NCBI RefSeq assembly: GCF_001951155.1
Contig: NZ_CP016359.1
Location: 310,001-374,000, forward strand
DNA: 64,000 nucleotides
Origin: Christiangramia flava JLT2011
GTDB taxonomy: Bacteria; Bacteroidota; Bacteroidia; Flavobacteriales; Flavobacteriaceae
Direction: 5' to 3'
Below, in pieces: positions 7,459 through 48,397 of the stretch (its first letter is position 1; every line of letters begins with the position of its first letter). The notes under the pieces are model-generated. The model was given only the letters and a program-made list of their open reading frames with translations. It searched no databases and was not told the origin of the DNA. The translations under genes were made by a program, and so were the position numbers.

Positions 7459-7492
7459 ACGAGGAAGATACTAAATCTGCTTCGGAAAGAGA

Positions 7493-9670
7493 CTAATTAG
7501 TTTCCAGCATTAACGTGCCGCCATTTTCCAGTTCGTCGTGCGACAGAAAATATCCATCCAGTTGCTTTCCATTCAATTGAATTTTTTCAAGGTTCCTTCC
7601 TTCTGAATGCTTAATATTTAACGAATTACCATTCGGTAAATTCCAGGTAACCTCATCAAAAATCGGAACGGTAACCAGGTACTCCGGATCGGTCGCTGAA
7701 AAGGAATAAAGGCCACCAGCAGTCATCACATACCAGGCAGACATTTCCCCGGCATCATCCATCCCGGGAAGGGCCAGCCCGCTGTCTCCAATTCCGTAGA
7801 AATCATTCAGAATAGTATCTAAAATAGCCTGAGATTTCCCAGGTTTATCAATAAAGTAATAAGAAAAAGGAGCTTCATGATCTGGCTGATTTCCTATACA
7901 ATACTGCCCTATAAAGCTGGACACGTTCCTGGCAATATGCTGCGGATTCCATTTTACCGTGAACAGGGAATCTAATTTTTTCTCAAACGCGTTATTCCCG
8001 CCATACAATTCTACCAATTTCGGCATATCATGTGGCGCAAAGAAGGATACCTGCCAGGCGTTCGCCTCCCGGTACATGTATTCGTAATAAGGATATTCTG
8101 AATCGAACGGTGTGATCCACTCTCCATTTTCCAGCCTGCCGCGCATGAAATTTGTTTGCTTATCGAAAACATATTCAAAATTTTGGGAACGCTGCATCAA
8201 ATCGTCGTAATGTTCCTGATCATTCATTTTTTCTGCTAGTTGCGCTAAAGAATAATCATCATAGGAATATTCAAGAGTTTTAGAAACCCCTGCATTCGAT
8301 TTTGTTTCGGTATGTGCTTTTTCCACATCAGCATCAGAAATATATCCTTTCTCGATATACTCTTTGATGTGAGGCCTTGTCCCTCCCTCTTCATAGGCGT
8401 TATTCAGCAAAAATTCATATGCTTTATCCACATCAAAATCTTTAATGCCTCGCAAATAGGATCCAGTGATAAAGGAAGCAGCATGATCTCCGTGAAAAAA
8501 TGTTGGGATGAACCCCTTTTCTTCTCCTCGAACGATCAAGGATTTGATAATATCTGCCGTAACTTCCGGCTGGAATATCTCCATCATTACCAACTTGTTT
8601 CTATAGGTATCCCAAAGCGACGGATTGGTATAAAAACGGTGTCCACGATTCATTTTTTGATTTCCCGGACCGGCAAAATCATTATTAACATCGCTTCGTA
8701 ATGCTGGCCAAAGAAAAGTACGATACAAAGAACTGTAAAATAGCTGTTTCTGCTTTTCGGTTCCGCGATCTACAACAATCCCATTCAGAATAGGCGTCCA
8801 TACATTTTGAGCCTCCTCGCGAACTTCATCAAAAGTCTTATCTCCAATTTCTTTCGTCAGGTTTTCCTTTGCATTTTCGGCACTCACGAAAGAAAGCCCA
8901 ATTTTCATGGTAACTTCGGAAGGTGAATTCCCTAATTTTATCAGGGCATAAGCCTTCTGATCCTCATTCTCCTGAACTCTTCTAAGCTCTTCAATTGGCC
9001 CATTCAGTATGGCGTGAAAATAGATCTTGTCACCTCCCATATCCTGAATTCCGCTGACTTCATTTTCACTTACTTGTTCTATATTCCAATTATTGACCCG
9101 GTTATTCGCTTCTCCTAATTTGAATACGATCTGCTTTTCAGCATTCTCCTGAAACTGGTATTTATGGTATCCGGCGCGTAAAGTAGAAGTAAGTTCCACA
9201 TTAATTCCGTAGTCGTCTAATTTGACCTGGTAATATCCTGGAGCAGCTGATTCATTTTGATGATCGAAAGAACTTTTGAACGGATATGTAGCATTTTCTG
9301 AAACCGGTAAAACAGGAATATTGCACAAATTCCAGTGACCTTTGTTGGTGTGAGTGAAAGCAATTATCTGATTATCTTCATATTCATAACCGGCGCCAGA
9401 ACCAAATTTGGTAATTGGGCTAAGCTGGACCATCGCATTTGGTAATGAAGAACCCGGAAATGTTAGTCCCGCCCAAACCCGCCAGTCTCTTGGTGGTGTA
9501 TACCCTATCGAATCAGGATTCGTTAATGGCGCAGTACCAATGAATGTATTCACGTAATCGAATGGCTTTTTCTGCCCGGATCTATTTACCGCCTCATTTT
9601 CTGAAGTGACTTCAGTTTTACATGAAATCAATATTGTACATGTTGCAAGAAATAGAAGAACTCTCTTCAT
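7493..9670 (-). CDS. GH92 alpha-mannosidase, divergent lipoprotein
   Basis: This 725-residue protein is a predicted lipoprotein (leader MKRVLLFLATCTILIS, then Cys). An alternative ATG lies two codons upstream at 9676. GH92 enzymes are Ca-dependent inverting exo-alpha-mannosidases. The general-acid region reads EANAW (Glu535), and the base region reads GMDDAGEMSAWY (Asp638 and Asp639), so both catalytic positions look occupied. The N-terminal half departs from the other GH92s here. The usual His-rich substrate motif reads FTHTNKGHWNLCNIP, and an extra segment (SIGYTPPRDW) precedes the FPGSS block. Expect an altered glycone or linkage specificity. It lies 30 bp downstream of GH76 and is followed by a secreted oxidoreductase, probably in one transcript controlled by the operator at 10882. 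Confidence 0.88.
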   Translation of the reverse strand: MKRVLLFLATCTILISCKTEVTSENEAVNRSGQKKPFDYVNTFIGTAPLTNPDSIGYTPPRDWRVWAGLTFPGSSLPNAMVQLSPITKFGSGAGYEYEDNQIIAFTHTNKGHWNLCNIPVLPVSENATYPFKSSFDHQNESAAPGYYQVKLDDYGINVELTSTLRAGYHKYQFQENAEKQIVFKLGEANNRVNNWNIEQVSENEVSGIQDMGGDKIYFHAILNGPIEELRRVQENEDQKAYALIKLGNSPSEVTMKIGLSFVSAENAKENLTKEIGDKTFDEVREEAQNVWTPILNGIVVDRGTEKQKQLFYSSLYRTFLWPALRSDVNNDFAGPGNQKMNRGHRFYTNPSLWDTYRNKLVMMEIFQPEVTADIIKSLIVRGEEKGFIPTFFHGDHAASFITGSYLRGIKDFDVDKAYEFLLNNAYEEGGTRPHIKEYIEKGYISDADVEKAHTETKSNAGVSKTLEYSYDDYSLAQLAEKMNDQEHYDDLMQRSQNFEYVFDKQTNFMRGRLENGEWITPFDSEYPYYEYMYREANAWQVSFFAPHDMPKLVELYGGNNAFEKKLDSLFTVKWNPQHIARNVSSFIGQYCIGNQPDHEAPFSYYFIDKPGKSQAILDTILNDFYGIGDSGLALPGMDDAGEMSAWYVMTAGGLYSFSATDPEYLVTVPIFDEVTWNLPNGNSLNIKHSEGRNLEKIQLNGKQLDGYFLSHDELENGGTLMLETN

Positions 9671-9700
9671 AATCATAAGTGATGTTTTATCTTGAAATTT

Positions 9701-10873
9701 TTAATCGAAATATCCTTCAGAATCTAATAGAGCTGCAGCCTCGATAAGCATCATTCCGCTAAGCTGCGTAGTAAGATCGGTATTATTACCAGGCCTGCTT
9801 GTCCAGCCAGAATTGAAGAACATTTCCGGTCGCTTGATAGCCTTCTTATATGCAGTTTCAGCATTCGTTTGCATAAAATCAGCAAGGTACTCACTGTCTT
9901 CTGCAGGAACATCTGGTTCCATGATCAATTGGGTTAGGTATCTTACCAAAATTCCTTTGAATAATCCTCCATCACCCTGACCTTCGTCCCTCATGATTCC
10001 GTTGGTAGTCAGTTTAAAACTTGTGGTCATTGATCTGGCAGAAAGAATTGCATCGTCCAAATATTCCTGGTCACCAGTTGCCTGATAAAGTTTCAAGCCA
10101 GAACCGATCCAGGTTCCAATATTGTAGGTAAAGATCCAGTCACGATTAATTACTTCTTCTCCATTTTGCATCGAAATATTATCCCAAACAAGGCCGGAAT
10201 AAGGATCAACCAGAGTTTCTTTTTCCCACTCATAGATCTTCTTTGCCCATTCCAGGTATTGTTCATTACCGGTGGCATCATATAATCTCATGGTCAGAAC
10301 TGTTGCAGGCCCGTTTGAGACAGCATTTTTTTGATAGGGAGTATCCTGTTTCCAGGTAATCCCTCCTCCAAATATATCATCGCTCCAGCTTGTTTTTATG
10401 ATATCCCATAATTCAATGGCAACATTTAAATACGCTTCATCTCCTGTTGCTACATACGCGCGCATGGAGGAATTTCCCAGCCATAACATATCATCGTTAA
10501 AGACATTGTTGTAGGTTCCTCCATTCATCACTTTAATGCCTTCCAGTAATGAATTAGCACGATCGGCATATTCATTATCCCCGGTTCGTTTATAAGCGTC
10601 AATCAGTACATGCAGGACGTGAGCATTTGGCCAATAGTGAAAGGTAGTATTACCGGTATTATTCTGAATGTAGGTAGTCTGGCTTCCCGAATAATTCTTT
10701 TTTAAGGAGACCTGAAGGGAATCAGCCGTTTGACTATATGTATACTGAAATTGAGAAGGAGTTTCACCTGGTGTATCTGGATTTTCAGGCTGTGAGGGTT
10801 CTGTTTCATCTGTTGAACAGGAAATTACCGGCATTATTGCAACCAATAATAGTATTTTATAAAACTCCTTCAT
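9701..10873 (-). CDS. GH76 endo-alpha-1,6-mannanase, surface lipoprotein
   Basis: I start this 390-residue protein at the ATG at 10873, because the lipoprotein leader follows at once (MKEFYKILLLVAIMPVIS, then Cys19). In-frame ATGs at 10879 and 10882 are possible. The frame extending to 10969 runs back into the upstream gene. A Pro/Glu/Thr-rich linker (22-40) precedes an (alpha/alpha)6 barrel. The GH76 signature of two adjacent aspartates is Asp127-Asp128 in FNDDMLW, nucleophile and acid/base in the family. GH76 cuts the alpha-1,6-mannan backbone of yeast-type mannan. The lipoprotein leader places it on the outer membrane, as expected for the first cut before SusCD import. An operator-like palindrome lies directly upstream, and a terminator separates it from the preceding gene. 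Confidence 0.92.
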   Translation of the reverse strand: MKEFYKILLLVAIMPVISCSTDETEPSQPENPDTPGETPSQFQYTYSQTADSLQVSLKKNYSGSQTTYIQNNTGNTTFHYWPNAHVLHVLIDAYKRTGDNEYADRANSLLEGIKVMNGGTYNNVFNDDMLWLGNSSMRAYVATGDEAYLNVAIELWDIIKTSWSDDIFGGGITWKQDTPYQKNAVSNGPATVLTMRLYDATGNEQYLEWAKKIYEWEKETLVDPYSGLVWDNISMQNGEEVINRDWIFTYNIGTWIGSGLKLYQATGDQEYLDDAILSARSMTTSFKLTTNGIMRDEGQGDGGLFKGILVRYLTQLIMEPDVPAEDSEYLADFMQTNAETAYKKAIKRPEMFFNSGWTSRPGNNTDLTTQLSGMMLIEAAALLDSEGYFD

Positions 10874-10881
10874 TCTCATCA

Positions 10882-10893
10882 TAAATCGATTTA
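10882..10893. promoter_or_regulatory. LacI-type operator upstream of GH76
   Basis: The 12-bp perfect palindrome TAAATCGATTTA is centred on CG at 10887/10888. The context on the minus strand is ACTAAATCGATTTAT. It ends only 9 bp before the preferred GH76 start codon and overlaps two alternative ATGs, so a bound repressor would block the transcript start or early elongation. It belongs to the same site family as those at 13409, 34915, 42475, 42712, 48376 and 48613. Confidence 0.7.
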
Positions 10894-10903
10894 GTAAATT
10901 GGT

Positions 10904-10927
10904 TAAAAAAAACCCGTTTTCACGGGC
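10904..10927 (-). terminator. Intrinsic terminator after the GMC/subunit-3 operon
   Basis: Read on the minus strand, CCCGT (10926-10922) pairs with ACGGG (10917-10913) around a short A-rich loop. The stem extends by flanking bases and is followed directly by an eight-T run (10912 down to about 10905). It lies 8 bp beyond the stop of the subunit-3 gene and marks a transcript end just before the GH76 operator. Confidence 0.8.
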
Positions 10928-10934
10928 TTCAGTC

Positions 10935-11636
10935 TTAGACCTCGTAATTCTCCCAGGTCTCAATATCATTCCGCTCTTCAGGCTTAATAGATTGTTTCAA
11001 CATTTTCTCGTCATAAGCGAGACCATGCTTTTCCAGCACGTCCTGTGGAACACCATCCCAAACATTCGGCTTATTACCTACATAACCAAGGTATTCAATG
11101 CCTTCTTTACTGGTAAAATAACCCGTCGTCACCAGGTTTCTGATTCGGTTAAAAAAGACAGCGCCCTGAGATAGTTCTGGTTTCACTTCCGAAGGGTATG
11201 CGATATCATCAACTATTGCCAGCTGATTCTCCTGGCTCAGATCTGTAAAATTCTGATTAAATCTCTTATTGCTTTCTGTTTTCAGCCATCTTAACCCTCC
11301 ACGCATCGGTATCTTATGTTCCGGAAGATCTTTGGTGATAAACTCAATAAATTCTCCAACTCCGGTTTTCGAAGCCGCAGGGTATTCTCCATCTCCAGGA
11401 ATAATGATATCTGCCAGAACCAGAATGGTCGCCATTTCTTCTTCGGAATAAAAATCTTCTGATAGCAACTTTTCATCGCGTTCTGCTTCCGGGCCAGTTC
11501 TTCCGTAGTAGAGTTTATTCTCTTTAATATCGGTTAACTCCTTAACTTCTTCTCCATTTTCCAAGCGGCAACTCATAAGAAGGCCTGAACCGGCACCACC
11601 GATTATTAATGTTTTGAGTGATTCTCTTCTATCCAT
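10935..11636 (-). CDS. Gluconate 2-dehydrogenase subunit 3-family protein (Tat-exported small subunit of the GMC oxidoreductase)
   Basis: This 233-residue protein starts with a twin-arginine signal (MDRRESLKTLIIGGAGSG) that ends in a possible lipobox (LLMSC). The body matches the small subunit-3 family of membrane-bound FAD sugar and gluconate dehydrogenases. It includes the segment LADIIIPGDGEYPAA and a C-terminal part rich in Trp and Tyr. In known complexes this subunit carries the signal peptide and takes the folded, FAD-loaded catalytic subunit through the Tat system. The GMC subunit 11 bp upstream has no signal peptide of its own, which fits that arrangement. No cytochrome c gene is visible next door, so the electron acceptor is unknown. 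The gene ends right before a strong terminator. Confidence 0.85.
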   Translation of the reverse strand: MDRRESLKTLIIGGAGSGLLMSCRLENGEEVKELTDIKENKLYYGRTGPEAERDEKLLSEDFYSEEEMATILVLADIIIPGDGEYPAASKTGVGEFIEFITKDLPEHKIPMRGGLRWLKTESNKRFNQNFTDLSQENQLAIVDDIAYPSEVKPELSQGAVFFNRIRNLVTTGYFTSKEGIEYLGYVGNKPNVWDGVPQDVLEKHGLAYDEKMLKQSIKPEERNDIETWENYEV

Positions 11637-11647
11637 AATTCGATAAA

Positions 11648-13390
11648 TTAAACGGTTCCTTTTTTCATTTCCTTTGCAAGATAATCTGAAGCTCTCCAGG
11701 CCAGTGCCAGTATCGTCCAGGTTGGATTCTTATCGGCCTGAGATACAAATGCTCCACCATCCATCACGAAAAGATTGGAAACATCGTGTGCCTGATTGTA
11801 CCTGTTCAAAACCGAAGATTTCGGGTCATCTCCCATTCTTGTAGTTCCCACTTCATGAATGATCCTTCCAGGATTTTCAAGTCCGTAATTCGATTCTTTT
11901 CCTGGTTTATTCCCAAGAGCGATCCCGCCCATGGATTCAATGATCTCTTCAAAAGTATCCTGCATGTGTGCAGCCTGCTTCACTTCTTCGTCACTCCACT
12001 TGTAATTGAACTTCAATACCGGAATTCCGAATTTGTCGACCTGGTTATTATCTATTGTACAGCGGTTATCTGCACGCGGAATACTTTCTCCACGACCTGC
12101 CATCCCAATAGTTGAACCATAGAATCGTTTCACATCTTCCATCAATCCAACGCCATAACCACCAGAACTTTTAGCAGCTCCACTTAAACCAGGAACGAGA
12201 GAGTTCATGGCCTGGGTATTGAAACCAAAACCATAAGAGGGCATTCCCATTCCTCCCCAGTATTCTATGTGATAACCACGGGTGAAACCTAAACTTTTAT
12301 CATCATTAAGCCACCATGGAGTATACAGGTGCATTCCACCAACTCCATCTTCATTATATCTTTTTCGATCCATCAACTGCGGAACAAATCCCATTCTTGA
12401 AGCACCGGTAGAATCGTGAAGGTATCGCCCTACCACATCGCTAGAATTTGCCAGTCCGTTTGGGTGAATTGCTGATTTTGAATTCAGCAGAATTCGGGCT
12501 GAACTACAGGCACTTGCTGCAAGAATAACCACTTTCCCTTTGATATGATAATCCTTCTGATCTTCTTTACTGATATAGTGCACACCAGTTGCTTTCCCTT
12601 CACCGTCTGTGGTTACCTCGCGTACCATGGCATTCACGTAAAGATCTACGTTGCCGGTTTCTTTGGCCGGTTTCACCAATACGGAAGAGGAGGAAAAATC
12701 TCCATAAACCGTACAGGACCTGGAACACTGACTACAGAAAAAACAGGCACCGCGTTCCTTATTTACACGCTTGGTCAAAATTGATAAACGTGAGGGGATC
12801 ATTGGTATTCCAACTTTATCTGCTCCTCTTTTGATGTATAGTTCGTGTAATCTTGGTTTTGGAGGTGGTAAGAAATAACCGTCTGGTTCATTCGGAATAT
12901 TTTCTTTTGTTCCGAAAACACCGATCATTTTATCAACCTTGTCATAATAAGGCTTTACATCGTCATAACCGATAGGCCAGTTATCTCCTTTTCCATCAAA
13001 ATCTTTTCTTTTAAAATCAAGCGGACCGAATCTCAGGGAAATACGTCCCCAGTGATTGGTTCTTCCTCCAACCATTCTTGAGCGAAACCAATCGAACTCG
13101 GTTCCCCACTCTTTTGTATAAGGTTCTCCATCAAGTTCCCAGCCTCCATAAGCCATATCAAAATCACCAAAAGGCCTAACAGTAGAAGCTCCTCTTCTGG
13201 GAGATTCATAAGGCCAGCGAAGTTGTGTACGTTGCTCAGGATTTTTGGGGTCAAAATCAGGACCGGCTTCTAAAATGGCTATTTTAAAACCTTTATCGGC
13301 TAAAATTTTGGCTGCCATTCCGCCTCCAGCTCCAGATCCTACGATGATCACATCATATTTAGGAGACTGCTCTATAATTTGAAAAGACAT
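11648..13390 (-). CDS. GMC-family FAD sugar dehydrogenase, glucoside 3-dehydrogenase-like catalytic subunit
   Basis: This 580-residue flavoprotein has the FAD-binding GSGAGGG (18-24) with an acidic strand end (LEAG, 40-43), the GMC motif GGRTNHWG (108-115), and the C-terminal HEVGTTRMG and NPTWTILALAWR blocks that hold the active-site His/Asn pair. Four cysteines at 216, 219, 222 and 226 (CFFCSQCSRSC) form a cluster site. FAD glucose dehydrogenases and D-glucoside 3-dehydrogenases carry a related Fe-S site that passes electrons onward. There is no signal peptide, so export with the Tat-bearing small subunit is expected. The likely reaction is oxidation of a glycoside at C3 to a 3-keto sugar in the periplasm. 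Other hydroxyls remain possible. A perfect operator lies 19 bp upstream. Confidence 0.83.
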   Translation of the reverse strand: MSFQIIEQSPKYDVIIVGSGAGGGMAAKILADKGFKIAILEAGPDFDPKNPEQRTQLRWPYESPRRGASTVRPFGDFDMAYGGWELDGEPYTKEWGTEFDWFRSRMVGGRTNHWGRISLRFGPLDFKRKDFDGKGDNWPIGYDDVKPYYDKVDKMIGVFGTKENIPNEPDGYFLPPPKPRLHELYIKRGADKVGIPMIPSRLSILTKRVNKERGACFFCSQCSRSCTVYGDFSSSSVLVKPAKETGNVDLYVNAMVREVTTDGEGKATGVHYISKEDQKDYHIKGKVVILAASACSSARILLNSKSAIHPNGLANSSDVVGRYLHDSTGASRMGFVPQLMDRKRYNEDGVGGMHLYTPWWLNDDKSLGFTRGYHIEYWGGMGMPSYGFGFNTQAMNSLVPGLSGAAKSSGGYGVGLMEDVKRFYGSTIGMAGRGESIPRADNRCTIDNNQVDKFGIPVLKFNYKWSDEEVKQAAHMQDTFEEIIESMGGIALGNKPGKESNYGLENPGRIIHEVGTTRMGDDPKSSVLNRYNQAHDVSNLFVMDGGAFVSQADKNPTWTILALAWRASDYLAKEMKKGTV

Positions 13391-13408
13391 ATATTGAAAT
13401 TGTTGTAA

Positions 13409-13422
13409 CTAAAACGTTTTAG
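13409..13422. promoter_or_regulatory. LacI-type operator upstream of the GMC operon
   Basis: CTAAAACGTTTTAG is a perfect 14-bp palindrome centred at 13415/13416 and is the cleanest site in the window. It lies 19 bp before the GMC start codon, inside the 120-bp gap after the Gfo/Idh/MocA gene. It ties the oxidative module to the same regulator as the susC promoters. Confidence 0.78.
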
Positions 13423-13450
13423 CTAAAATAATAATTAAATATAAATTACC

Positions 13451-13492
13451 AAGATTTTCTTAAAAAAAGCAATAAATATTTAAAGAAATCTT
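13451..13492 (-). terminator. Possible AT-rich terminator after the long GH operon
   Basis: An imperfect inverted repeat (AAGATTT..CTT against AAG..AAATCTT) lies just beyond the stop of the Gfo/Idh/MocA gene. A T-rich stretch lies within its loop and downstream on the minus strand. The stem has almost no GC pairs, so this is weak. Confidence 0.3.
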
Positions 13493-13510
13493 AATTAGAA
13501 TACTGAATTA

Positions 13511-14707
13511 TTAGCTCAGCCACCGATCATAGTCAGAATTCCATTCCACGATCTTATTTTCATACATCGCATCTAAAGCCATCTGAACAGCAACGGCAGT
13601 TTTCGCCCCGGTGATCTCATTTGACAGTGGTTGCTGGTTATTCATGATACTATCCCGAAAATCCATTAATGCCTGTTTGCTTGGGTCGGCATGATTTACA
13701 TGAATTGGAATTCCTTTGCCTTCTTCCCATTGAACAGTTGCTCCGGAAACACCGTCAACTTCGCCTAATTTCCGATCATAATTACCTTCAGGATAGAACC
13801 AGGCCTGCGTATAATCCAGGATAATCGTTCCCTTGCTGCCGATCACCTTAATCTGGTAATCATCTTTGGCATTGGTAGTCAGGCAGGTGAATTTTGCTTC
13901 TACTCCATTTGGATAGCTATAGATCAGGTGAATATTATCATAAGTTTCGCGGCCATCCTTCCAGTAATCAATTCCTCCGGTACCCATTACCTGCTTTGGC
14001 GTGGCATCTAATACCCAATTCACAAAATCGATCTGGTGAGAGCATAATTCAGCAACGAGTCCGCCACTATATTCCTTATACATCCTCCAGTTGATCAATT
14101 TCTCCAGATCCGGACTTGGAACCGGTCTTCGCCAGTCGCCAAAGCGATTCCACTGGCATTGAAAAGAACTGATTTCGCCGACTTTTCCATTTTTGATCAG
14201 GTCTACAACATGTGTATATAATCGCGAGCTGTGATACTGATGCCCCGTTTGGTAGATCAGATTTTCAGGTTTGGCAGCCACGAGATCTTTTATTCCATCG
14301 TAACCTTTAGCCATAGTCTTTTCACCATAAACATGCTTACCCGCCTGTAGGGAAGCGATTCCTATTTCAGAATGTGTATTAAAAGGTGTCGCCATGTAGA
14401 TCGCATCGATATTCTTATTTTCAAGCAACTTCCGATAATCTGAATATCCCTTTGGATTGCCTTCGGCTCGTTTAATACCTTCAGCTAGATGAGAAGGCAA
14501 AATATCACAACAGGATACTACTTTTAAATTCGGTATTTCGTTGATGAAGGGGATCATTCCGTTACCGCGACTCCCAGTCCCAATAACCCCAACATTGATC
14601 GTATCATTTTTATTTTCAAACGTATTGATCCTTGCCAGAACCGATGTACTAGAAGCCAGGGCCAGAGACGCCATTCCGCTTTTTATTACAAAATCTCTTC
14701 TTTTCAT
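13511..14707 (-). CDS. Tat-exported Gfo/Idh/MocA-family protein with altered EKP motif
   Basis: This 398-residue protein has a twin-arginine signal (MKRRDFVIKSGMASLALASS). The nucleotide-binding loop is GVIGTGSRG (40-48). The family EKP motif reads EKT (129-131), keeping the catalytic Lys but losing the Pro. A Tat signal means folding with NAD(P) before export, as is known for GH109-type and 3-keto-glycoside oxidoreductases of this superfamily. It is the last gene of the 34870-13511 run and follows a second Tat-exported paralogue by 39 bp. Context with DUF1080 and the GMC dehydrogenase suggests a self-recycling oxidation/reduction of glycoside C3. An NAD-dependent glycosidase of GH109 type is the main alternative. 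Confidence 0.82.
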   Translation of the reverse strand: MKRRDFVIKSGMASLALASSTSVLARINTFENKNDTINVGVIGTGSRGNGMIPFINEIPNLKVVSCCDILPSHLAEGIKRAEGNPKGYSDYRKLLENKNIDAIYMATPFNTHSEIGIASLQAGKHVYGEKTMAKGYDGIKDLVAAKPENLIYQTGHQYHSSRLYTHVVDLIKNGKVGEISSFQCQWNRFGDWRRPVPSPDLEKLINWRMYKEYSGGLVAELCSHQIDFVNWVLDATPKQVMGTGGIDYWKDGRETYDNIHLIYSYPNGVEAKFTCLTTNAKDDYQIKVIGSKGTIILDYTQAWFYPEGNYDRKLGEVDGVSGATVQWEEGKGIPIHVNHADPSKQALMDFRDSIMNNQQPLSNEITGAKTAVAVQMALDAMYENKIVEWNSDYDRWLS

Positions 14708-14746
14708 CTAAAGCTATTAATTTTCAGAATGAATTATTCTGACTTT

Positions 14747-16087
14747 TTAAACTTCAGGTTTCCAACCATCAGCGTACTCACGTGACCAGAATTTCATCAC
14801 CTCTTCATCCAAAACTTTTCCTGAATGGCTATCTACAGAAAATTTTTTGCCTGAACGATAGGCCATATTCGCATAATGTACCATCGCCATGGAAACGCTT
14901 GCATCATCTATTGGTGCTGCTAATTTGGCCTTACCACGAATGGTATCAAAGAAATTGACCATGTGTGCGGTAGTCACATCTCCACCTCCACCAAGAGCTG
15001 TTCCGGATTCTTTTGAAGCTGAATTGACTTCGCGAATGACATTCCCGCTACGGTCTTTCAGAATATACTTTTCACGATCTACAAAAACACTTCCATCGGT
15101 TCCGTAGATAATCGTTCCACGTCCTGCACCATAGGTCTGATACCCATTGCGACTCTGCCCATCCCATTGAATGATCTTATCATCTTCAAACTTAAAGGTC
15201 GCTTCCATACTATCGTACATTTCCCAGCCATCATCCTTAAAATGTCTTTTTTCAGCTTCAACTTCTACATAATTTGGAAAATCCACCTGAAGCGCCCATC
15301 TCGCAATATCCATTTCGTGGGTTCCATTATTACCAGCTTCCGCAGTACCGTAATTCCAACCATACCAGTGCCAGTTATAATCCCAGGTTTCTTCGGTATA
15401 ATCTCTCCTGGTTGCAGGCCCCTGGAAAAGCTCCCAGTCGAGACCTTCAGGTACCTTAGCTTTTTTCTGAACAGGCACTTCTCCCCTTGAATTGGTGTAG
15501 AAAGCAATAGCTTTATAAGGCTTCCCAATCACGCCATCATGAATTTCCCTGATGATCTCTATCGTATGATCTGAAGATCGCTGCTGATTACCCATTTGCA
15601 CCACTTTATCAAATTTTTTAGCAGCTTCCACCAGCATCTCATTTTCCATCATATTATGGCTACAGGGTTTTTCAACATACACATGTTTGTCGCCCTTCAT
15701 GGCCATGATCGATCCCGGAGTATGCCAGTGATCTGGAGTAGCATTGATCAGGATATCCACGTTCTTATCGTCGATCACCTTACGGATATCATTTTCCAGT
15801 TTCGGCGAATAATCTATTCTAGTGGCAAATTCATCTAAAGCGCGCTCCCGCTGACTTTTCATCACATCGCATAAATAAGCGAGCCGAACATTGGAGGATT
15901 TTAATGAAATTGGTTCGTAGTATCCGCCAAGTCTTCTTCCCAGTCCGGCAATTGCCACATTCAACCGGTCATTAGAGCCAATTATATTTCGGTAACTACT
16001 AGCCGTCATTCCCATTACAGAACTGCCAGCGATCATCGCAGCACTTCCCAAAAACGTTTTCGTAATAAAATCTCTTCTTGAAGTCAT
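14747..16087 (-). CDS. Tat-exported Gfo/Idh/MocA-family oxidoreductase
   Basis: This 446-residue protein has a twin-arginine signal (MTSRRDFITKTFLGSAAMIAG) and the Rossmann loop IAGLGRRLGG (46-55). NATPDHWH (115-122) and EKPCSH (139-144) follow, the pattern of the large secreted clade often found beside DUF1080 genes. The C-terminal domain carries several Trp-rich strands (ETWDYNWHWYGW and similar) that suit sugar binding. It is 11 bp downstream of the DUF1080 gene, so co-translation is likely. In the gut Bacteroides oxidation-elimination-hydration pathway, related oxidoreductases make or reduce the C3 ketone of a glycoside. That role here is inferred. Confidence 0.84.
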   Translation of the reverse strand: MTSRRDFITKTFLGSAAMIAGSSVMGMTASSYRNIIGSNDRLNVAIAGLGRRLGGYYEPISLKSSNVRLAYLCDVMKSQRERALDEFATRIDYSPKLENDIRKVIDDKNVDILINATPDHWHTPGSIMAMKGDKHVYVEKPCSHNMMENEMLVEAAKKFDKVVQMGNQQRSSDHTIEIIREIHDGVIGKPYKAIAFYTNSRGEVPVQKKAKVPEGLDWELFQGPATRRDYTEETWDYNWHWYGWNYGTAEAGNNGTHEMDIARWALQVDFPNYVEVEAEKRHFKDDGWEMYDSMEATFKFEDDKIIQWDGQSRNGYQTYGAGRGTIIYGTDGSVFVDREKYILKDRSGNVIREVNSASKESGTALGGGGDVTTAHMVNFFDTIRGKAKLAAPIDDASVSMAMVHYANMAYRSGKKFSVDSHSGKVLDEEVMKFWSREYADGWKPEV

Positions 16088-16098
16088 AACTGCGGAAA

Positions 16099-17475
16099 TT
16101 AAAGTTGCTTGATTTTAATATTTCTGAAAGCCACACGATTACCGTGGTCCTGTAGTAAAATTCGGCCTTTTTCAAGTTCCCCGAAATTTGGCCATTTATC
16201 ATATTTACTTTCAGAAACCAGTTTTCTGAATTCTTCGGAACCTCTTTCGTACTCCAGTACTTTTACGCCATTTAGCCAATGTTCCACATGACCTTCCTTA
16301 GAAATGATATGAGCCGTGTTCCACTCTCCAATCGGGTTGATCGGCTTTTCAGGGTCTGCCTGAATCAGATCGTAAAGGGAAGCCACCGTTCTGCTGCCTT
16401 CATGATTCCCAAGTTTTGCATCAGGATGGTTGTCATCGTCTAGAATTTGATACTCCAGGCCTATAGAAGACCCCGGACCTTTGTTCAGATCGGTATCAAC
16501 GTAATATTTTATCCCGCTATTGGCACCTTTCGTTATTTTAAAATCGACTTTCAATTCAAAATCGCCATAAACAGTATCGGTCACGATATCTCCACCGGCC
16601 GTAGATTCTTCACCGCCACTTGCCAGAACGATCAGGTTCCCATCTTCCATCACCCATCCTTTCTCGGGAAATTTATCCAGCCTCGCTCCACGCCAGCCAT
16701 TAGTTGTTTTACCATCCCAAAGCAATTCCCAACCATTATTCGCTTCATCTGAAGTCAGTTGATTTTTGGTCATTTTCGGCTCCAGCGGACTTTTTTTCGA
16801 ATATTTCTGAAGGCTGTCAGTAAGAATTCTAATGTTCTTCCACATGATCTGCTTTCCGGCTTCATCCTCGTCAGAAATGGAATGTACCTGAAGAGCTATA
16901 AATCCTTCCGAAGTTTTATCATCAATTAAAAAAGCTGTAGGAGTTTCATTCACCCAGGTTTTGATGGTATCCCCAATCGCTTCAATTCGATAGTGATTCC
17001 ATTCGTTTTGCCTGAAAGCTTTTTGCGCTTCTGAATCATTTTCCAAAGAATACAGCCAGCCTCGACGACCTTCATCATAGATACCGCCGCTCCATGCTCT
17101 ATCGCTGGGGTCGATCTCTACCTGGTAACCGTGAACTCTTCCATTTTGATATTGAGGAAGGCTGTTACTTCGAATTTGTATTCCGGAATTCATGGTAGAA
17201 TCAACCTTAAAATCTAATTCCAGTATGAAATCACCATAATTCTTTTCGGTGGTTAAAAACGAATTAGGTGTACCATGAACGGTAGAACCTATGATCGTCC
17301 TGTCTTTCACCTCATACTTTGCTTCACCTCCTTTTTGGTCCCAACCTGAAAGGTCATTATCATCAAATAAAGAAACCCAGGGTACACTTTCCTTTTTTTC
17401 CTGCTGGCAGCTTGTGAAAAGTGCCAGTGATATGAGAACTAAGGCTAGTCGTACTCTGGGTTTCGATAATTTCAT
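16099..17475 (-). CDS. Two-domain DUF1080 (3-keto-disaccharide hydrolase/lyase family) lipoprotein
   Basis: This 458-residue protein has a lipoprotein leader ending at Cys23 (LALFTSC). Two DUF1080 beta-jelly-roll domains follow. The first begins near LFDDNDLSGW and has the family block FILELDFKVDSTMNSGIQIRS. The second begins near LLWDGKTTNGW and has FELKVDFKITKGANSGIKYY. DUF1080 (PF06439) proteins cleave 3-keto glycosides, some by beta-elimination rather than hydrolysis. A tandem arrangement could mean one catalytic and one binding copy or two specificities. I cannot tell which from the sequence. It lies between GH92 (36 bp upstream) and two Tat-exported oxidoreductases, which makes it the central member of the proposed oxidative arm. 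Confidence 0.86.
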   Translation of the reverse strand: MKLSKPRVRLALVLISLALFTSCQQEKKESVPWVSLFDDNDLSGWDQKGGEAKYEVKDRTIIGSTVHGTPNSFLTTEKNYGDFILELDFKVDSTMNSGIQIRSNSLPQYQNGRVHGYQVEIDPSDRAWSGGIYDEGRRGWLYSLENDSEAQKAFRQNEWNHYRIEAIGDTIKTWVNETPTAFLIDDKTSEGFIALQVHSISDEDEAGKQIMWKNIRILTDSLQKYSKKSPLEPKMTKNQLTSDEANNGWELLWDGKTTNGWRGARLDKFPEKGWVMEDGNLIVLASGGEESTAGGDIVTDTVYGDFELKVDFKITKGANSGIKYYVDTDLNKGPGSSIGLEYQILDDDNHPDAKLGNHEGSRTVASLYDLIQADPEKPINPIGEWNTAHIISKEGHVEHWLNGVKVLEYERGSEEFRKLVSESKYDKWPNFGELEKGRILLQDHGNRVAFRNIKIKQL

Positions 17476-17511
17476 GTTGGTTATTTTAATTCCTTATAAT
17501 ATCCGCATTTA

Positions 17512-19833
17512 TTATTTTACAAACAACTGCTTGTTTGGTTTACTGCTCATCCAGAACTTCAATTCTCCACCATTCATTATATCATCATGCTGAATAAAAG
17601 GTTCGGTAAGCTCTTTTCCATTCAGTTCCACCTTTTTCACGTAGACATTTTTATCGCTCTGGTTTTTGGCGATCACGGTAAATTTCTTGCCGTTATCAAG
17701 ATTCAATGTCGCTTCACTGATCGCGGGACTCCCGATCGCGTAATCTACCGATCCCGGAGCTACCGGATAAAATCCCAGCGTACTGAAGATATACCAGGCG
17801 CTCATCTGGCCAAAATCATCATTTCCGCTTAAACCATCAGCACCGTTCATATACTTCATTTTAAGAATCATCCTGATCTTGTCCTGGGCTTTCCACGGCT
17901 CATTCGTCCAGTCATACAAATAAGCGACATGGTGAGAAGGCTCATTTCCATGTACATAATTCCCGATAATTCCTTCACGGGAAATATCTTCTGTATTCTC
18001 AAAATACTTATCGGGTAATTCCATGGTAAACAGGGAATCCAGGTGTTGCGAAAACTGGTCTTTCCCGCCCATCATCTCAATCATTTCTGCAGGAGCATGT
18101 GGAACATACAAACTATAATTCCAGGAATTTCCTTCAATATAACCCTGGCCATGGGTATTCAGTTCATCAAATTCTTTTTTGAAAGTACCATCGCTCAATT
18201 TTGGGCGCATAAATCCAGATTTCGGATCGTAAACATTCTTATAATTTTCAGATCTTTTCATGAATTCTTCATAAACCTCATCATTTCCGATCTTCTTCGC
18301 AGCCTGAGCGATTGCCCAGTCATCATAAGCATATTCCAAAGTTTTAGAAACAGATGCACCATTTTTATCTTCAGGAACATAACCCATATCCATGTAATAT
18401 TGGAGTCCGTCATAATAGCCGGTTTTTGCCGTATTTACCATGGCGTCAAGAGCATGTTCATGATCAAAATCGGCATTACCCTTTACGATCGCATCAGCAA
18501 TTACCGAAGCACTGTGATACCCGATCATACACCAGTTCTCATTCCCATAATGCGACCAAACCGGAAGCATGGAATGCACACTCTGATCATAATGAGCCAT
18601 CATCGCCTGCACCATATCCTGATTTCTTTCAGGTTGTAACACATTGAAAAGCGGATGCAGTGCACGGTAGGTATCCCAAAATGAAAAACTGGTATAATTG
18701 GTAAAACCATCAGCCTGATGACGATTCCTGTCAATTCCCATGTATTGGCCATCGGTATCCATATATTCAGTCGGGCCTAAGAAAGCGTGGTACATTGCTG
18801 TATAAAAGTTGACCTTTTCTTCCTGGTCTTCTTCGGAAATATCCACTTTTGAAAGTTCTTTATTCCAGGTGTCTCTTGCCTGCTGGCGAACCTCATCAAA
18901 ATTCCATCCCGGAATTTCCTCCTTCATATTCTGAATGGCTCCCTCAGTACTCACCGGCGAAATTGCCAGTTTTACCTCCAAAGGTTCCGAAGTATCAAAG
19001 TCGAACCACATCCTGATCTGCTCTCCGGCAATCTCCGGGAAGTTATGCGCCTGATCAAATTTTCCCCAGAAACCACGATAAGGCTGTTTGTCGTATCGCT
19101 CTCTTCCGTATTCCTTGATCGGTTTATTGAAAGACATGGCGAAATACACTTTTCTGGTTCTTGCCCAGCCATTGGTCTGGCGATAACCGGTGACCAGCGT
19201 ATCATTTTCAACACGAACGAACGTCCATACGTTTTTATCTTCGTAATTGTAGATTCCATGCATCAGGTCAAAAACCAAATGGCTTTCCTTTCCTTCCGGA
19301 AAAGTATACCGATGCATTCCCACACGGGTAGAAGCGGTCATTTCAGCTTTAATATTATAATCGTCCAGCATCACGCTGTAATATCCCGCTTCAGCTGTTT
19401 CGCGATCATGAGAAAACCTGCTGCGATAACCACTTTCCGGATCGGACTCTGTTCCGGGATTCAGTTTCAGATCGCCTGTTGTCGGCATGATCAGGAAATC
19501 TCCAAGATCGGAATGCCCGGTTCCGCTGAAATGTGTATGACTGAAACCTACGATGGTGTTATCGTCATACTGGTAGCCAGCGCAATATTTATAAACATCA
19601 GGATTGTAGTGCCCGTCTACTGCATACGGAATTGTATCGGTATCGGGACTTAACTGAATACTTCCAAAAGGCACAGTAGCTCCGGGATACGTATGCCCCA
19701 TTTTTGCAGTCCCGATCATCGGGTCTACATACTGGGCAAAATCCTGATTTTCCTGCGCAGAAGTATTCGTATTAAATAGCAATGCTGAAAGGATGGCAAG
19801 TGATCCTGCAATCGTTCCGAAATTCTTTTTCAT
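17512..19833 (-). CDS. GH92 exo-alpha-mannosidase, canonical type
   Basis: This 773-residue protein has a Sec signal peptide (to TNTSAQE) and a complete GH92 fold. The substrate motif is HTHFSGTGHSDLGD. The general acid is Glu567 in EGNSWNY, and the base region is GNDDFGQMSAWY with Asp672 and Asp673. GH92 enzymes need Ca and release mannose from alpha-1,2, alpha-1,3, alpha-1,4 or alpha-1,6 linkages. The GNDD variant with the HTHFSGTGH motif is the commonest form. Linkage preference cannot be read from this. No lipobox is visible, so it is probably periplasmic. It follows GH43 by 15 bp. Confidence 0.93.
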   Translation of the reverse strand: MKKNFGTIAGSLAILSALLFNTNTSAQENQDFAQYVDPMIGTAKMGHTYPGATVPFGSIQLSPDTDTIPYAVDGHYNPDVYKYCAGYQYDDNTIVGFSHTHFSGTGHSDLGDFLIMPTTGDLKLNPGTESDPESGYRSRFSHDRETAEAGYYSVMLDDYNIKAEMTASTRVGMHRYTFPEGKESHLVFDLMHGIYNYEDKNVWTFVRVENDTLVTGYRQTNGWARTRKVYFAMSFNKPIKEYGRERYDKQPYRGFWGKFDQAHNFPEIAGEQIRMWFDFDTSEPLEVKLAISPVSTEGAIQNMKEEIPGWNFDEVRQQARDTWNKELSKVDISEEDQEEKVNFYTAMYHAFLGPTEYMDTDGQYMGIDRNRHQADGFTNYTSFSFWDTYRALHPLFNVLQPERNQDMVQAMMAHYDQSVHSMLPVWSHYGNENWCMIGYHSASVIADAIVKGNADFDHEHALDAMVNTAKTGYYDGLQYYMDMGYVPEDKNGASVSKTLEYAYDDWAIAQAAKKIGNDEVYEEFMKRSENYKNVYDPKSGFMRPKLSDGTFKKEFDELNTHGQGYIEGNSWNYSLYVPHAPAEMIEMMGGKDQFSQHLDSLFTMELPDKYFENTEDISREGIIGNYVHGNEPSHHVAYLYDWTNEPWKAQDKIRMILKMKYMNGADGLSGNDDFGQMSAWYIFSTLGFYPVAPGSVDYAIGSPAISEATLNLDNGKKFTVIAKNQSDKNVYVKKVELNGKELTEPFIQHDDIMNGGELKFWMSSKPNKQLFVK

Positions 19834-19848
19834 AGTAATTCTAATCGT

Positions 19849-20811
19849 TTATTTTTCTTTAGTAAGGTCCACGCCTTCGTTGGTAATGATAACCGGCTTG
19901 ATAAAACCGTCTTCATCGAAATACATTCTTTCAATACAGGTAACTCTTGAGTTCCCATCGGTTTCGGTTAGTGGTCTGCGGTGATATACAATATAATAAT
20001 CATCATTATCAGGATTCTGAATTATGGAATGATGCCCGGCACCAGTCGCGATATTCATATCCTGTTTCAGAATAGTTCCCACTCTTTCGAAAGGTCCCAA
20101 AGGAGAATCGGCAATGGCGTAAGCCACGCTATAATCCGGTCCTGTCCAGCCACCTTCAGACCACATGAAGTAATATTTCCCGTCGCGCTTAAACATGAAT
20201 GGACCTTCCACATATTTATCTGGAGTTACTTCTTTAAAAACGGTTCCGTCTTCAAAAGGAACAAAATCGGTAAAATCATCATTCATCTTGGCAACGTTGC
20301 AATGTCTCCATCCGCCGTAAAACATGTAATAATCATCGCCGTCCTTGTATACGAACTGGTCTATTGGCTGTGCTCCATTGTGAAATTTCCCAATCAGCGG
20401 TTCACCCAAAAGATCTTTAAAAGGTCCCTGAGGCTGATCGGCAACCGCGACTCCAATTCCGCCTAACTCCTCATCGCTCTGGATATCATTCGCGGCAAAG
20501 AACAGGTAATATTTATCTTCTTTGGAAATGATCGCCGGAGCCCACATGGCTTTTTCAGCCCATTTAACTTCGGAAGTATCGATGATTCGGTGATGATATT
20601 CCCAATTTACCAGGTCATCTGAAGAAAACGCGTCCATGAAAACCTGCTTTTCATATGGTGCAGAATAGGTTGGATATATCCAGTATTTGCCGTCAAAAAC
20701 GGTTCCTTCAGGATCTGCATACCAACCCGGAAAAACCGGGTTATTCTGTGCTTCGGAATGTATTCCGCAGAAAATAACAGCGGCCACAAACAGTATTTTT
20801 TTGAAATTCAT
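19849..20811 (-). CDS. GH43-like glycosidase
   Basis: This 320-residue protein has a signal peptide (to HSEAQ) and a single five-bladed beta-propeller. The three GH43 carboxylates are in place: Asp33 (YADPEG) as base, Asp151 (QPIDQF) as pKa modulator and Glu202 (YVEGPF) as acid. GH43 enzymes are mostly alpha-L-arabinofuranosidases, beta-xylosidases or beta-galactosidases. Its place between an MFS importer and a GH92 suggests removal of a side sugar from the mannan substrate. There is no C-terminal accessory domain, and the length is that of a bare catalytic module. The subfamily was not determined. Confidence 0.85.
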   Translation of the reverse strand: MNFKKILFVAAVIFCGIHSEAQNNPVFPGWYADPEGTVFDGKYWIYPTYSAPYEKQVFMDAFSSDDLVNWEYHHRIIDTSEVKWAEKAMWAPAIISKEDKYYLFFAANDIQSDEELGGIGVAVADQPQGPFKDLLGEPLIGKFHNGAQPIDQFVYKDGDDYYMFYGGWRHCNVAKMNDDFTDFVPFEDGTVFKEVTPDKYVEGPFMFKRDGKYYFMWSEGGWTGPDYSVAYAIADSPLGPFERVGTILKQDMNIATGAGHHSIIQNPDNDDYYIVYHRRPLTETDGNSRVTCIERMYFDEDGFIKPVIITNEGVDLTKEK

Positions 20812-31840: not shown

Positions 31841-31885
31841 AAAACTGAATGATGTCATAACTGACGTTTACTTGACGGATGAATA

Positions 31886-34870: not shown

Positions 34871-34914
34871 TCATTAAAATCAGTCATCGCTGAACTGAAG
34901 TCAGCTAATTTAAA

Positions 34915-34926
34915 TAAATCGATTTA
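34915..34926. promoter_or_regulatory. LacI-type operator for the 21-kb glycosidase operon
   Basis: TAAATCGATTTA is a perfect 12-bp palindrome centred at 34920/34921, in the minus-strand context AACTAAATCGATTTATTT. It lies in the gap between the SusCD-linked lipoprotein and the operon that starts at 34870 or 34596. It shares its core with the other sites in the locus. Confidence 0.7.
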
Positions 34927-34973
34927 GTTATCATAAAGATTTCTTAAAAATAAGTCTGGCTCTCTGAAAATGA

Positions 34974-39194: not shown

Positions 39195-39247
39195 CTTATT
39201 CAAAATTTTGTGTTTATCGATTTATCGTACAATTGAGATCGGACGGA

Positions 39248-42466: not shown

Positions 42467-42497
42467 TCAATATACTAAAACGATTTAGTAAAGCAAA
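42467..42497 (-). promoter_or_regulatory. susC1 promoter with LacI-type operator between -33 and -7
   Basis: On the minus strand TTTG (42497-42494) is followed after exactly 19 bp by TATATTGA (42474-42467), a good fit to the Bacteroidota -33/-7 pattern. Most of the spacer is the 14-bp near-palindrome CTAAAACGATTTAG (42475-42488, centre 42481.5). A repressor bound here would exclude RNA polymerase. The susC2 promoter has the same build and spacing. Confidence 0.8.
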
Positions 42498-48367: not shown

Positions 48368-48397
48368 GCAATATACTAAATCGTTTTAGCAAAACAA
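48368..48397 (-). promoter_or_regulatory. susC2 promoter with LacI-type operator between -33 and -7
   Basis: On the minus strand TTG (48397-48395) is followed after 19 bp by TATATTGC (48375-48368). The spacer holds CTAAAACGATTTAG (48376-48389, centre 48382.5), the same sequence in the reverse sense as at susC1. The downstream leader (about 45 bp, with TTAAAACAACCAAAAATTAAC) also resembles the susC1 leader. Confidence 0.8.

Follow-up and report, generated by a model that had tools for sequence, protein, structure and literature searches.

A putative 3-keto-glycoside oxidation and elimination arm in the LacI-type regulon of an alpha-mannan PUL of Christiangramia flava

Why should an alpha-mannan PUL hold a group of sugar oxidoreductases and a DUF1080 protein among its mannosidase genes? 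The window in which this question arises is a stretch of 64,000 nt (NZ_CP016359.1, 310,001–374,000; coordinates are given in the window frame), analysed by ORFs and a Pfam profile search, with 38 window proteins scanned. SusCD, GH92 (five copies), GH76 and GH125, the families by which an alpha-mannan PUL is recognised here, are all present. In the same orientation, on the minus strand, lie GH92a of the exo-alpha-mannosidase family (7493–9676), GH76 of the endo-alpha-1,6-mannanase family (ORF 9701–10969), GH92b (alpha-mannosidase family, 17512–19833), GH43 (19849–20811), an MFS transporter (20824–22140; a 90% identical copy adjoins the module in genome G023), GH92c (22145–24442), ROK, GH125 (alpha-mannosidase family, 25433–26866), GH97, GH92d (29549–31858) and two SusCD pairs (SusD1, 37398–39203; SusC1, 39248–42421; SusD2, 43617–45245; SusC2, 45250–48324). 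A LacI-family regulator (49436–50482) and GH92e (50552–52606) are encoded on this strand as well.

The first-pass annotation had placed at 10935–17475 a GMC dehydrogenase and its subunit 3, a pair of Gfo/Idh/MocA proteins of the Tat type and a DUF1080 lipoprotein with two domains, interleaved with GH76, GH92 and GH125. ORFs, Pfam matches and motifs agree with this description, and the ORF positions on the minus strand are exactly as first listed. The genes are subunit 3 (Gluconate_2-dh3, PF13618, 102.7 bits; 10935–11636), GMC with N and C domains and an FAD motif (11648–13390), Gfo2 (13511–14707), Gfo1 (14747–16087) and DUF1080x2 (16099–17475), which contains two 3keto-disac_hyd domains (about 16825–17379 and 16108–16734). 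The third exported Gfo/Idh/MocA protein announced at 6373, Gfo3, was recovered by Pfam as the final gene of the run (6373–7458, minus strand). Export motifs were read directly off the sequence, without a signal-peptide program. Gfo1 (MTSRRDF) and Gfo2 (MKRRDF) have twin-arginine starts, subunit 3 combines a twin-arginine start (MDRRESLK) with a lipobox (LMSC), DUF1080x2 has a lipobox (FTSC) and Gfo3 a Sec-type start; in GMC, this reading found no export signal of its own.

Is the group regulated together with the PUL? From 34596 to 6373, the intergenic gaps measure at most 55 bp, except for 120 bp before GMC. The GMC start codon is preceded at 18 bp by a perfect LacI-type operator, CTAAAACGTTTTAG (13409–13422). 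This palindromic motif, CTAAAWCGWTTTAG, whose core resembles LacI-family sites in general, has five perfect sites in the 4.0 Mb genome, four of which belong to the mannan PUL, in line with the earlier claim that operators are shared. The other PUL sites lie 53 bp before SusC1 (42475–42488), 51 bp before SusC2 (48376–48389) and before the GH5-GH2 operon (window-frame 64296); the fifth, at 1,834,139, is outside the PUL. Sites with one mismatch occur at the likely GH76 start (10881–10894) and upstream of the gene run 34596–6373 (34914–34927). Allowing up to one mismatch, the genome scan yielded 16 operator matches compared to 4 per strand for a reversed-pattern control; allowing up to two, the window contains 8 sites versus 1.07 expected, a number reached by 0 of 100 shuffles. 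The sites are putative operators, and the LacI-family regulator is presumably the protein that binds them. Behind subunit 3, a hairpin with a T-run (10905–10930, minus strand, -12.4 kcal/mol, z -3.57) is a probable terminator; GMC and subunit 3 therefore probably form a short transcription unit of their own. A consensus scan of 6200–20000, however, did not list this hairpin, and its promoter- and terminator-like sites were no commoner than in shuffles. GH76 probably starts near 10879 (lipoprotein MMRMKEFYK...), so that the apparent overlap of its ORF with subunit 3 is probably an artefact.

The relatives of these proteins point to a kind of reaction. Both DUF1080 domains match PF06439 (166.8 and 147.3 bits, cut-off 26.8; 302 bits in all). 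In a search of solved structures, DUF1080x2 is 57% identical over its full length to another tandem DUF1080 protein, BT3469 of Bacteroides thetaiotaomicron (4jqt), which is titled merely 'putative glycosyl hydrolase' in the PDB. Structure comparison also relates it to the eliminase/hydratases 8tda, 8rr2 and 9fbe, among which 8rr2 binds 3-keto-glucose. By this kinship, DUF1080x2 is a putative eliminase/hydratase of 3-keto glycosides. The best solved-structure sequence match of Gfo1 is the glucoside-3-dehydrogenase 8tdf (88.7 bits; next protein 51.1 bits), which is also its top fold match (E 4.9e-23). The kinship with 3-keto and elimination enzymes that had been proposed is thus borne out for Gfo1 and DUF1080x2. 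As 1,5-anhydro-fructose reductase is nearly equal as second fold match (E 2.1e-22), the fold alone leaves the reaction of Gfo1 unfixed. Catalytic-type residues are invariant in Gfo1 (R4 R5, K140 and H257, 23 of 23 aligned sequences) and in Gfo2 (R3 R4, K130 and H224, 11 of 11). Scores stayed under the cut-offs of the BT_2158 glycoside 3-dehydrogenase family NF058561 (at least 750 bits; Gfo1 146.2, Gfo2 80.8, Gfo3 25.5) and of the BT_2159 disaccharide 3-dehydrogenase family NF058563 (at least 650 bits; Gfo1 38.3, Gfo2 30.8). Relatives of Gfo3 (E up to 1e-70) are found in 28 other of 199 genera, at no more than 54% identity.

For GMC, the best solved relatives are FAD-glucose and fructose dehydrogenases. 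The alignment to the FAD-glucose dehydrogenase 6a2u shows the His/Asn pair and three Cys, which we take to be ligands of an Fe-S cluster in an electron path of the FAD-glucose dehydrogenase type. According to Pfam, GMC is paired with Gluconate_2-dh3 as in LacABC-type dehydrogenases, and this pair is kept in 39 of the 40 GMC loci fetched. The third component of the LacABC type is presumably a cytochrome; the 38 scanned window proteins yielded no cytochrome c match.

How does the group compare to known systems? The BT2156–BT2160/Alistipes AL gut pathway, the subject of a 2024 Nature paper, reportedly proceeds by oxidation, elimination, hydration and reduction; we take 8tda, 8tdf, 8tdh, 8tdi, 8v31, 8rr2 and 9fbe to be its structures and BT2156 to be its TIM-barrel isomerase partner. 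Both systems combine Gfo/Idh/MocA dehydrogenases with a DUF1080 eliminase/hydratase, and Gfo1 and DUF1080x2 have their structural kin there. Here, however, Gfo1 and Gfo2 score far below the NCBIfam cut-offs, DUF1080 is in tandem, GMC and subunit 3 are extra and the operators are those of a mannan PUL. Furthermore, none of the 38 scanned window proteins matches the isomerase (PF01261), a trait of the BT2156–BT2160 operon. In Caulobacter LacABC, LacA presumably corresponds to GMC and LacC to subunit 3. Its 3'-ketolactose route has a membrane-bound 3-dehydrogenase encoded near DUF1080 partners, proposed to act in the periplasm (PMC9007349). Unlike in Caulobacter, the third dehydrogenase component is unrecognised among the scanned window proteins, two Gfo proteins are added and the setting is GH92/GH76/GH125. 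The Gfo oxidoreductases DgpA and D3dgpA oxidise glycosides at C3 by a ping-pong mechanism with NAD, in which 3-oxo-glucose serves as oxidant and regenerates NAD+ (PMC11239390). They differ in acting on glucosides of aglycones, with galactose, rhamnose and glucuronide glycosides unreactive and methyl mannoside used solely as an additive. The Hel_I_6 PUL likewise carries six GH92, GH43, GH125, GH2 and GH76, whereas its main text never mentions an oxidoreductase, dehydrogenase, DUF1080 or Gfo (PMC9213526, main text). In a literature search that covered few subscription papers, DUF1080 or 3-keto-glycoside enzymes were not found tied to mannan, which agrees with the first-pass statement that such a route is undescribed for mannan.

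On balance, we favour a general oxidation-elimination-hydration arm of the 3-keto-glycoside kind that was recruited into the LacI regulon of the alpha-mannan PUL. This estimate spans both substrate branches, terminal mannose and mannan decorations, and a minority share of the probability belongs to readings that we do not list. The SusCD pairs would import mannan oligosaccharides to the periplasm, where the arm would act on mannan-derived glycosides, either terminal mannosyl residues or decorations. GMC with subunit 3 would oxidise the non-reducing terminal residue, presumably at C3, to a first 3-keto sugar and pass the electrons via the Fe-S cluster to the respiratory chain. Gfo1 and Gfo2, exported folded with NAD bound, would be ping-pong oxidoreductases that oxidise fresh glycoside and reduce the 3-keto product, and GMC may prime them. 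DUF1080x2 would take the C2 proton off the 3-keto glycoside, release the C1 aglycone and put water back, with linkage-independent cleavage as the net outcome. The elimination product, 2-hydroxy-3-keto-glucal, lacks the C2 stereocentre, so that mannosides and glucosides would converge on one intermediate, from which the hydratase would give back 3-keto-glucose. If the arm takes mannosides, C2 stereochemistry is erased and mannose should leave as 3-keto-glucose. That alpha-mannosides are indeed cleaved in this way, converting mannan partly to a glucose-series sugar in the periplasm, blind to linkage and epimer, beside the classical mannosidases and taken up into mannan regulons on more than one occasion, is a tentative and somewhat unlikely proposal. 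The chemistry is known for other sugars; mannan as its target would, if true, be new.

Does the association recur? Orthologs of SusD2 (63–77%) were found in 3 other of 199 genera, and each such locus has GMC and subunit 3. Other genera, too, have the pair in GH92/SusCD loci, in some cases together with the operator: a perfect motif precedes GH43-GMC-subunit 3 in G117, a one-mismatch motif (mismatch in the central CG) precedes GH92c-GH92b-GMC-subunit 3 in G053, and G484, from another family, has two one-mismatch motifs in a divergent SusC/GMC gap. G167 contains GH76, GH125, GH92s, SusCD and the entire arm, with one single-mismatch operator in the SusC2–GMC interval and another ahead of MFS-GH92e-DUF1080x2-Gfo1-Gfo2. 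Motif scans found no operator site in L128 (GH92c-GMC-subunit 3) or in the same-genus copies L167–L172. GH92 lies within 10 kb of GMC in 5 of 21 loci (0.28 expected) and of DUF1080x2 in 8 of 47 (0.54 expected; two of the 8 are remnants), where the uniform expectation is weak because GH92 and arm genes both favour PULs. By contrast, a GH125 match was found in 14 genomes, only 4 of which have the GMC ortholog, and G375 has a 77% identical GMC with no SusCD/GH match to the mannan PUL in the roughly 59 kb read.

The reading of the five genes as one mannan-specific arm fared less well. In the locus DNA examined, only 2 of 80 loci with DUF1080x2 relatives match GH92 (one a remnant), some others are of hexuronate or fucose type, and four congeners keep the module without an intact GH92: among six that retain the tandem DUF1080 protein, two have a GH92 remnant only and two no GH92. 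Mannan specificity was thus not upheld. The unity of the arm stands in part, as the two modules adjoin in G007 and G167 and are usually apart elsewhere: in the locus DNA examined, GMC and subunit 3, like GH76 and GH125, occur in 0 of the 80 loci, and DUF1080x2 has a match in 2 of 40 GMC loci (48% and 67%). This separation, the probable terminator and the nearest solved relatives of GMC would suit an ordinary respiratory sugar dehydrogenase that acts on C1 or C2 of released mannose, unrelated to the adjacent DUF1080/Gfo module. We consider this improbable, given the repeated adjacency, a DUF1080-like gene near the GMC relatives L133, L203 and L204 (within about 2 kb in the latter two) and the LacABC precedent.

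Position alone could also explain the regulon if a mobile general glycoside module without a mannan role had inserted between GH92b and GH76. GH92b remnants directly before the retained module in two congeners (85% over 54 aa; 61% over 135 aa) and its persistence without PUL genes in L167 and L170 would be compatible with such an insertion. Yet GMC carries its own perfect operator rather than one borrowed from upstream. Moreover, GMC-GH92 linkage (remnant counted) requires at least four changes on the GMC tree, and the AU test speaks against trees in which the G167 GMC joins the window's group (p 0.033, for a group picked after the tree was seen), which suggests repeated recruitment of GMC to GH92 loci. 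We thus regard mere insertion as very improbable. In a narrower branch of our favoured reading, 3-keto elimination would remove only those decorations of a heteromannan that are not mannose (uronic acid, fucose, glucose or sulfated caps) and thereby open it to GH92, GH76 and GH125. Close DUF1080x2-Gfo1 relatives stand beside hexuronate genes in L168 (UxuA and UxaE, with an SDR, FBPase and a sulfatase) and L188 (above cut-off, D-mannonate oxidoreductase, UxuA, KduI, UxaC and KDPG aldolase; also a KDG kinase-like protein). In L171 they adjoin GH92 and L-fuconolactonase-like genes that scored below cut-off. The window PUL includes a sulfatase, GH43, GH127, GH2 and GH97 by profile scan, and Gfo2 has the glucuronide-3-dehydrogenase structure 8tdi as one of its relatives, albeit not the nearest. 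The scan of 38 window proteins, however, named no hexuronate or fucose catabolic family. We hold this branch to be somewhat unlikely.

If the oxidation-elimination arm does act on mannosides, marine bacteria would have a second, non-hydrolytic opening of mannan alongside GH92, GH76 and GH125, linkages and caps that stop mannosidases would become accessible, and, outside the cytoplasm, mannose would pass into the glucose series. One pathway would then be served jointly by respiratory GMC dehydrogenases and NAD-recycling Gfo enzymes. Even with a decoration as substrate, the locus suggests that annotators should count the arm genes as PUL members. Yeast mannan is among the carbon sources tried on G. 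flava (PMC5306329).

The mannan PUL lies on the minus strand and runs from 63968 down to 6373 of the window, in a genome that consists of a single contig (4,007,868 bases). Scanning 38 proteins of the window against Pfam, 35 from the PUL and three from outside it, gave two SusCD pairs, five GH92, GH76, GH125, GH97, two GH43, GH127, GH2, GH5, a sulfatase, ROK, MFS and a LacI regulator, with others besides. The same scans placed the genes of the oxidative arm at 16099-17475 (DUF1080x2, a lipoprotein with two DUF1080 domains), 14747-16087 (Gfo1), 13511-14707 (Gfo2), 11648-13390 (the GMC dehydrogenase) and 10935-11636 (its subunit 3), with the separate Gfo3 at 6373, all on the minus strand. By these gene coordinates, the segment 10935..17475 and the third Gfo at 6373 named in the first-pass annotation are exact. 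Subunit 3 and GH76 seem to overlap, but we rejected this as a conserved feature, since a start-codon artefact is likely.

In the text of a published comparison of Gramella species, only G. flava among those compared has a mannan PUL, and GH26, GH76, GH92 and GH125 were likewise found in G. flava alone (PMC5306329). According to the same text, yeast mannan is one of the tested carbon sources of G. flava, and trehalose, laminarin, starch, arabinan, arabinogalactan and galactomannan are used (PMC5306329). The PUL extends past the window: immediately upstream there is another SusCD pair, the third, together with DUF3823 (L174). In addition, SusC1 (39248-42421) has a Dockerin_1 match over the Pfam cut-off (25.6 versus 22.9 bits), perhaps a calcium-binding loop, and a 731-aa protein (32401-34596) that is the first gene past a one-mismatch operator at 34914 has no Pfam match.

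When comparing the arm's proteins to solved structures, we found that DUF1080x2 aligns with BT3469 (4jqt) along its entire length, at 57% identity. Matches to its C-terminal domain were the B. thetaiotaomicron 3-keto-2-hydroxy-glucal hydratase (8tda) and the 3-keto-glycoside eliminase/hydratase (8rr2, 9fbe; ligand 3-keto-glucose or 2-hydroxy-3-keto-glucal). Many residues are invariant in both DUF1080 domains across 18/18 aligned sequences; the arrangement of the domains is uncertain, since the model (pLDDT 77) has a pTM of 0.61 and a TM of 0.45 to 4jqt. The best solved relative of Gfo1 by sequence is 8tdf (88.7 bits, with the first other protein at 51.1), which is also the first fold match of its model (pLDDT 80; TM 0.69, 21% identity), closely followed by the 1,5-anhydro-fructose reductase 4koa. 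For Gfo2, YjhC (6o15) is the best solved relative, with the glucuronide-3-dehydrogenase 8tdi also related. In Gfo1, the EKP lysine K140 and H257 are invariant in 23/23 aligned sequences, as are K130 and H224 of Gfo2 in 11/11; we take these to be the catalytic positions. GMC aligns with the FAD-glucose dehydrogenase 6a2u across three Cys, presumably the ligands of an Fe-S cluster, and a His/Asn pair, and an oxidase is less likely given the Cys motif. Subunit 3 had no match among solved structures up to E 10.

We infer a division of labour in which GMC-subunit 3 would form the first 3-keto sugar, with respiration paying for it, Gfo1 and Gfo2 would then recycle the 3-keto sugar as oxidant, and DUF1080x2 would carry out elimination and then hydration. 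The released sugar may be imported by the MFS transporter. If a mannoside entered, loss of the C2 proton would wipe out the difference between mannose and glucose, and the product should be 3-keto-glucose, as follows from how elimination proceeds and from the compounds bound in 8rr2 and 9fbe. We know of no test of such elimination on mannosides.

The kind of system is already known. LacABC encoded near DUF1080 is the known periplasmic pairing of a 3-dehydrogenase with DUF1080, and this work, on lactose, was the one paper on DUF1080 with 3-keto glycosides in the literature searched (PMC9007349). As described for a Gfo relative, a ping-pong reaction restores NAD+ with 3-oxo-glucose, and most O-glycosides proceeded to the aglycone (PMC11239390); the product of an Agrobacterium eliminase is given as 2-hydroxy-3-keto-glycal (PMC10628242). 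The literature searched, mostly outside subscription papers, contained no account of DUF1080, 3-keto-glycoside or Gfo/Idh/MocA enzymes with mannan. The main texts of papers on a Salegentibacter mannan PUL (PMC9213526) and on sulfated mannan (PMC13063451) likewise mention no oxidoreductase, dehydrogenase or DUF1080. What is new is that such a system stands in a mannan locus, that an extra GMC pair accompanies a tandem DUF1080, and that recruitment to GH92 loci appears to have happened more than once.

By comparison of loci, we rejected the arm as a single conserved five-gene unit; it consists of two modules, GMC-subunit 3 and DUF1080x2-Gfo1(-Gfo2), that are usually apart. The latter is general. 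Among the loci of 80 genomes with the best 80 of 152 DUF1080x2 relatives, GH76, GH125, GMC and subunit 3 were found in 0/80 and a GH92 match in only two, within the stretches examined, many of which are shorter than 21 kb. Some DUF1080x2 loci have a sulfatase match. By eye, UxuA-, UxaC-, KDG kinase- and KDPG aldolase-like genes lie near DUF1080x2 in L007 and L008, and only the UxaC-like gene of this hexuronate set in L012; NCBIfam detected the same set in L188. Locus L171 contains fucose-type genes, whose families scored under their cut-offs, with SusCD and GH92. DUF1080x2-Gfo1 lies near SusCD and a distant GH92 (~30% to GH92b) in L171, L193 and L194.

Within the window's genus, a full-length tandem DUF1080 protein is present in 7/24 genomes. 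It belongs to the mannan PUL in the window's own genome, to a hexuronate and sulfatase locus with GMC and subunit 3 in G007, and to a locus with fucose-type genes and GH92 in G002; in G023 it has GH97, MFS and a UxuA-like gene beside it, and the copies of G004, G012 and G021 are without adjacent PUL genes. Directly before DUF1080x2, a GH92b remnant is found in G007 (85%, 54 residues; L168:9240-9416) and G021 (61%, 135 residues; L169:5180-5659), so in both genomes the module was kept after loss of the mannosidase. We found no GH92 match anywhere in G012 or G023. Using rounded genome sizes, GH92 occurs within 10 kb in 8/47 DUF1080x2 loci (two being remnants) compared to 0.54 expected under uniform placement, an enrichment that is partly explained by the clustering of PUL genes; the GMC side of these figures comprises 21 loci, with the GMC of G007 not among them. 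The window's MFS (20824-22140) has a 90% identical copy by the DUF1080x2 module of G023 (L172:15829-17148), where DUF1080x2, Gfo1, Gfo2 and GH97 are merely 63-72% alike to those of the window.

Orthologs of GMC at 61% or more were present in 51/199 family genomes (one per genus, the window's own counted, one partial), and the next GMC matches listed reach at most 38%. We read the GMC context in 40 of the 50 other genomes with such an ortholog, and for six GMC genes in five further phylum-sample genomes (eight stretches), which are high scorers and not random. Subunit 3 adjoins GMC in 39/40 contexts; a simple ORF caller missed subunit 3 and GH43 in L127, and tblastn recovered both. A GH92 match lies inside the stretch in 4/40 contexts (L128, L129, L135 and L148), and in G117 one lies 11.9 kb from GMC. 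SusD2 orthologs (63-77%, next match 38%) occur in just three other genera of the 199, and GMC-subunit 3 is present in the SusD2-ortholog locus in all three (G167, G117, G053). The G167 locus contains GH97, GH92a, GH125, GH76, SusCD, SusD2/SusC2, GH92e, MFS, a sulfatase and GH2, and in that one locus also GMC, subunit 3, Gfo2, Gfo1 and DUF1080x2; it is the whole arm within a second mannan PUL. However, a GMC ortholog is present in only 4 of the 14 genomes having a GH125 match.

In seven of the 40 GMC loci (L132, L138, L139, L142, L149, L152 and L161), a GH130-type cluster gene lies on the opposite strand a few kb off. This cluster (scanned member L152) and a TIM-barrel cluster were each named from one scanned member; GH130 is a beta-mannoside phosphorylase family. 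Near GMC, there is also a DUF1080-like gene of 219-244 aa in L203 and L204, and a one-domain match in L133.

The first GMC tree (42 orthologs and one paralog) grouped the window with G007, G117, G044 and G053, all five of which are GH92-linked, G007 via its remnant. The phylum sample has a GMC ortholog in 98/395 genomes (E <=1e-180), and six of its loci were added to an enlarged tree, one of them (G484) GH92-linked. There, the window's group has seven members, five of them GH92-linked (one via remnant) and both G375 members without a link. The idea that one GMC clade goes with GH92 without exception, true for 5/5 on the first tree, was rejected when the added loci brought it to 5/7. With the remnant scored as linked, GH92 linkage requires at least four changes on the enlarged tree. 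Constraining the G167 GMC into the window's group, chosen after seeing the tree, was disfavoured (AU p 0.033), and an independent arrival of DUF1080x2 in G167 was not carried by the tree test (AU p 0.165).

Lastly, we analysed the operators. The palindrome CTAAAWCGWTTTAG, spotted by reading intergenic DNA, has five perfect sites genome-wide, four of them at the PUL. These precede GMC, SusC1, SusC2 and the GH5-GH2 operon (the last at window-frame 64296), and bear out the first-pass proposal that the arm and the mannan genes share operators. The LacI protein presumably binds these predicted operators. Sites with one mismatch lie at the GH76 start, ahead of the 34596 gene run and ahead of the third SusC just outside the window. 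The fifth perfect site lies at 1.834 Mb, 26 bp ahead of a 942-aa GH106 gene (L198:5140-8008; genome 1,834,139 on); GH106 is an alpha-L-rhamnosidase family, and this gene, far from the PUL, is likely a distant member of the same regulon. A hairpin 3' of subunit 3, which a consensus scan for promoters and terminators did not list, points to GMC-subunit 3 as a short unit with an operator of its own.

Across 55 loci scanned, with L186-L197 outside the scan, a site at one mismatch or fewer occurred in 11: L127, L129, L135, L148, L173, L183 (SusC2 of G053) and the GH125 loci L178, L181, L182, L184 and L185. At this threshold, the scan found no site in L128 nor in the same-genus copies L167-L172. The motif lies ahead of units holding GMC or the DUF1080 module in G117, G053 and G167, and in G484, from another family, it occurs twice in the divergent gap between SusC and GMC, with GH92c in the SusC operon. 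Since the operator core looks like LacI-family sites in general, these cross-genus matches are suggestive only. Locus L173 (genome 3,213,000-3,232,900) holds a second pair of the GMC-subunit 3 type, with its GMC 35% to that of the window and a one-mismatch operator-like site before it; the locus also has SusCD, a Gfo-like gene and a DUF1080 protein with a single domain.
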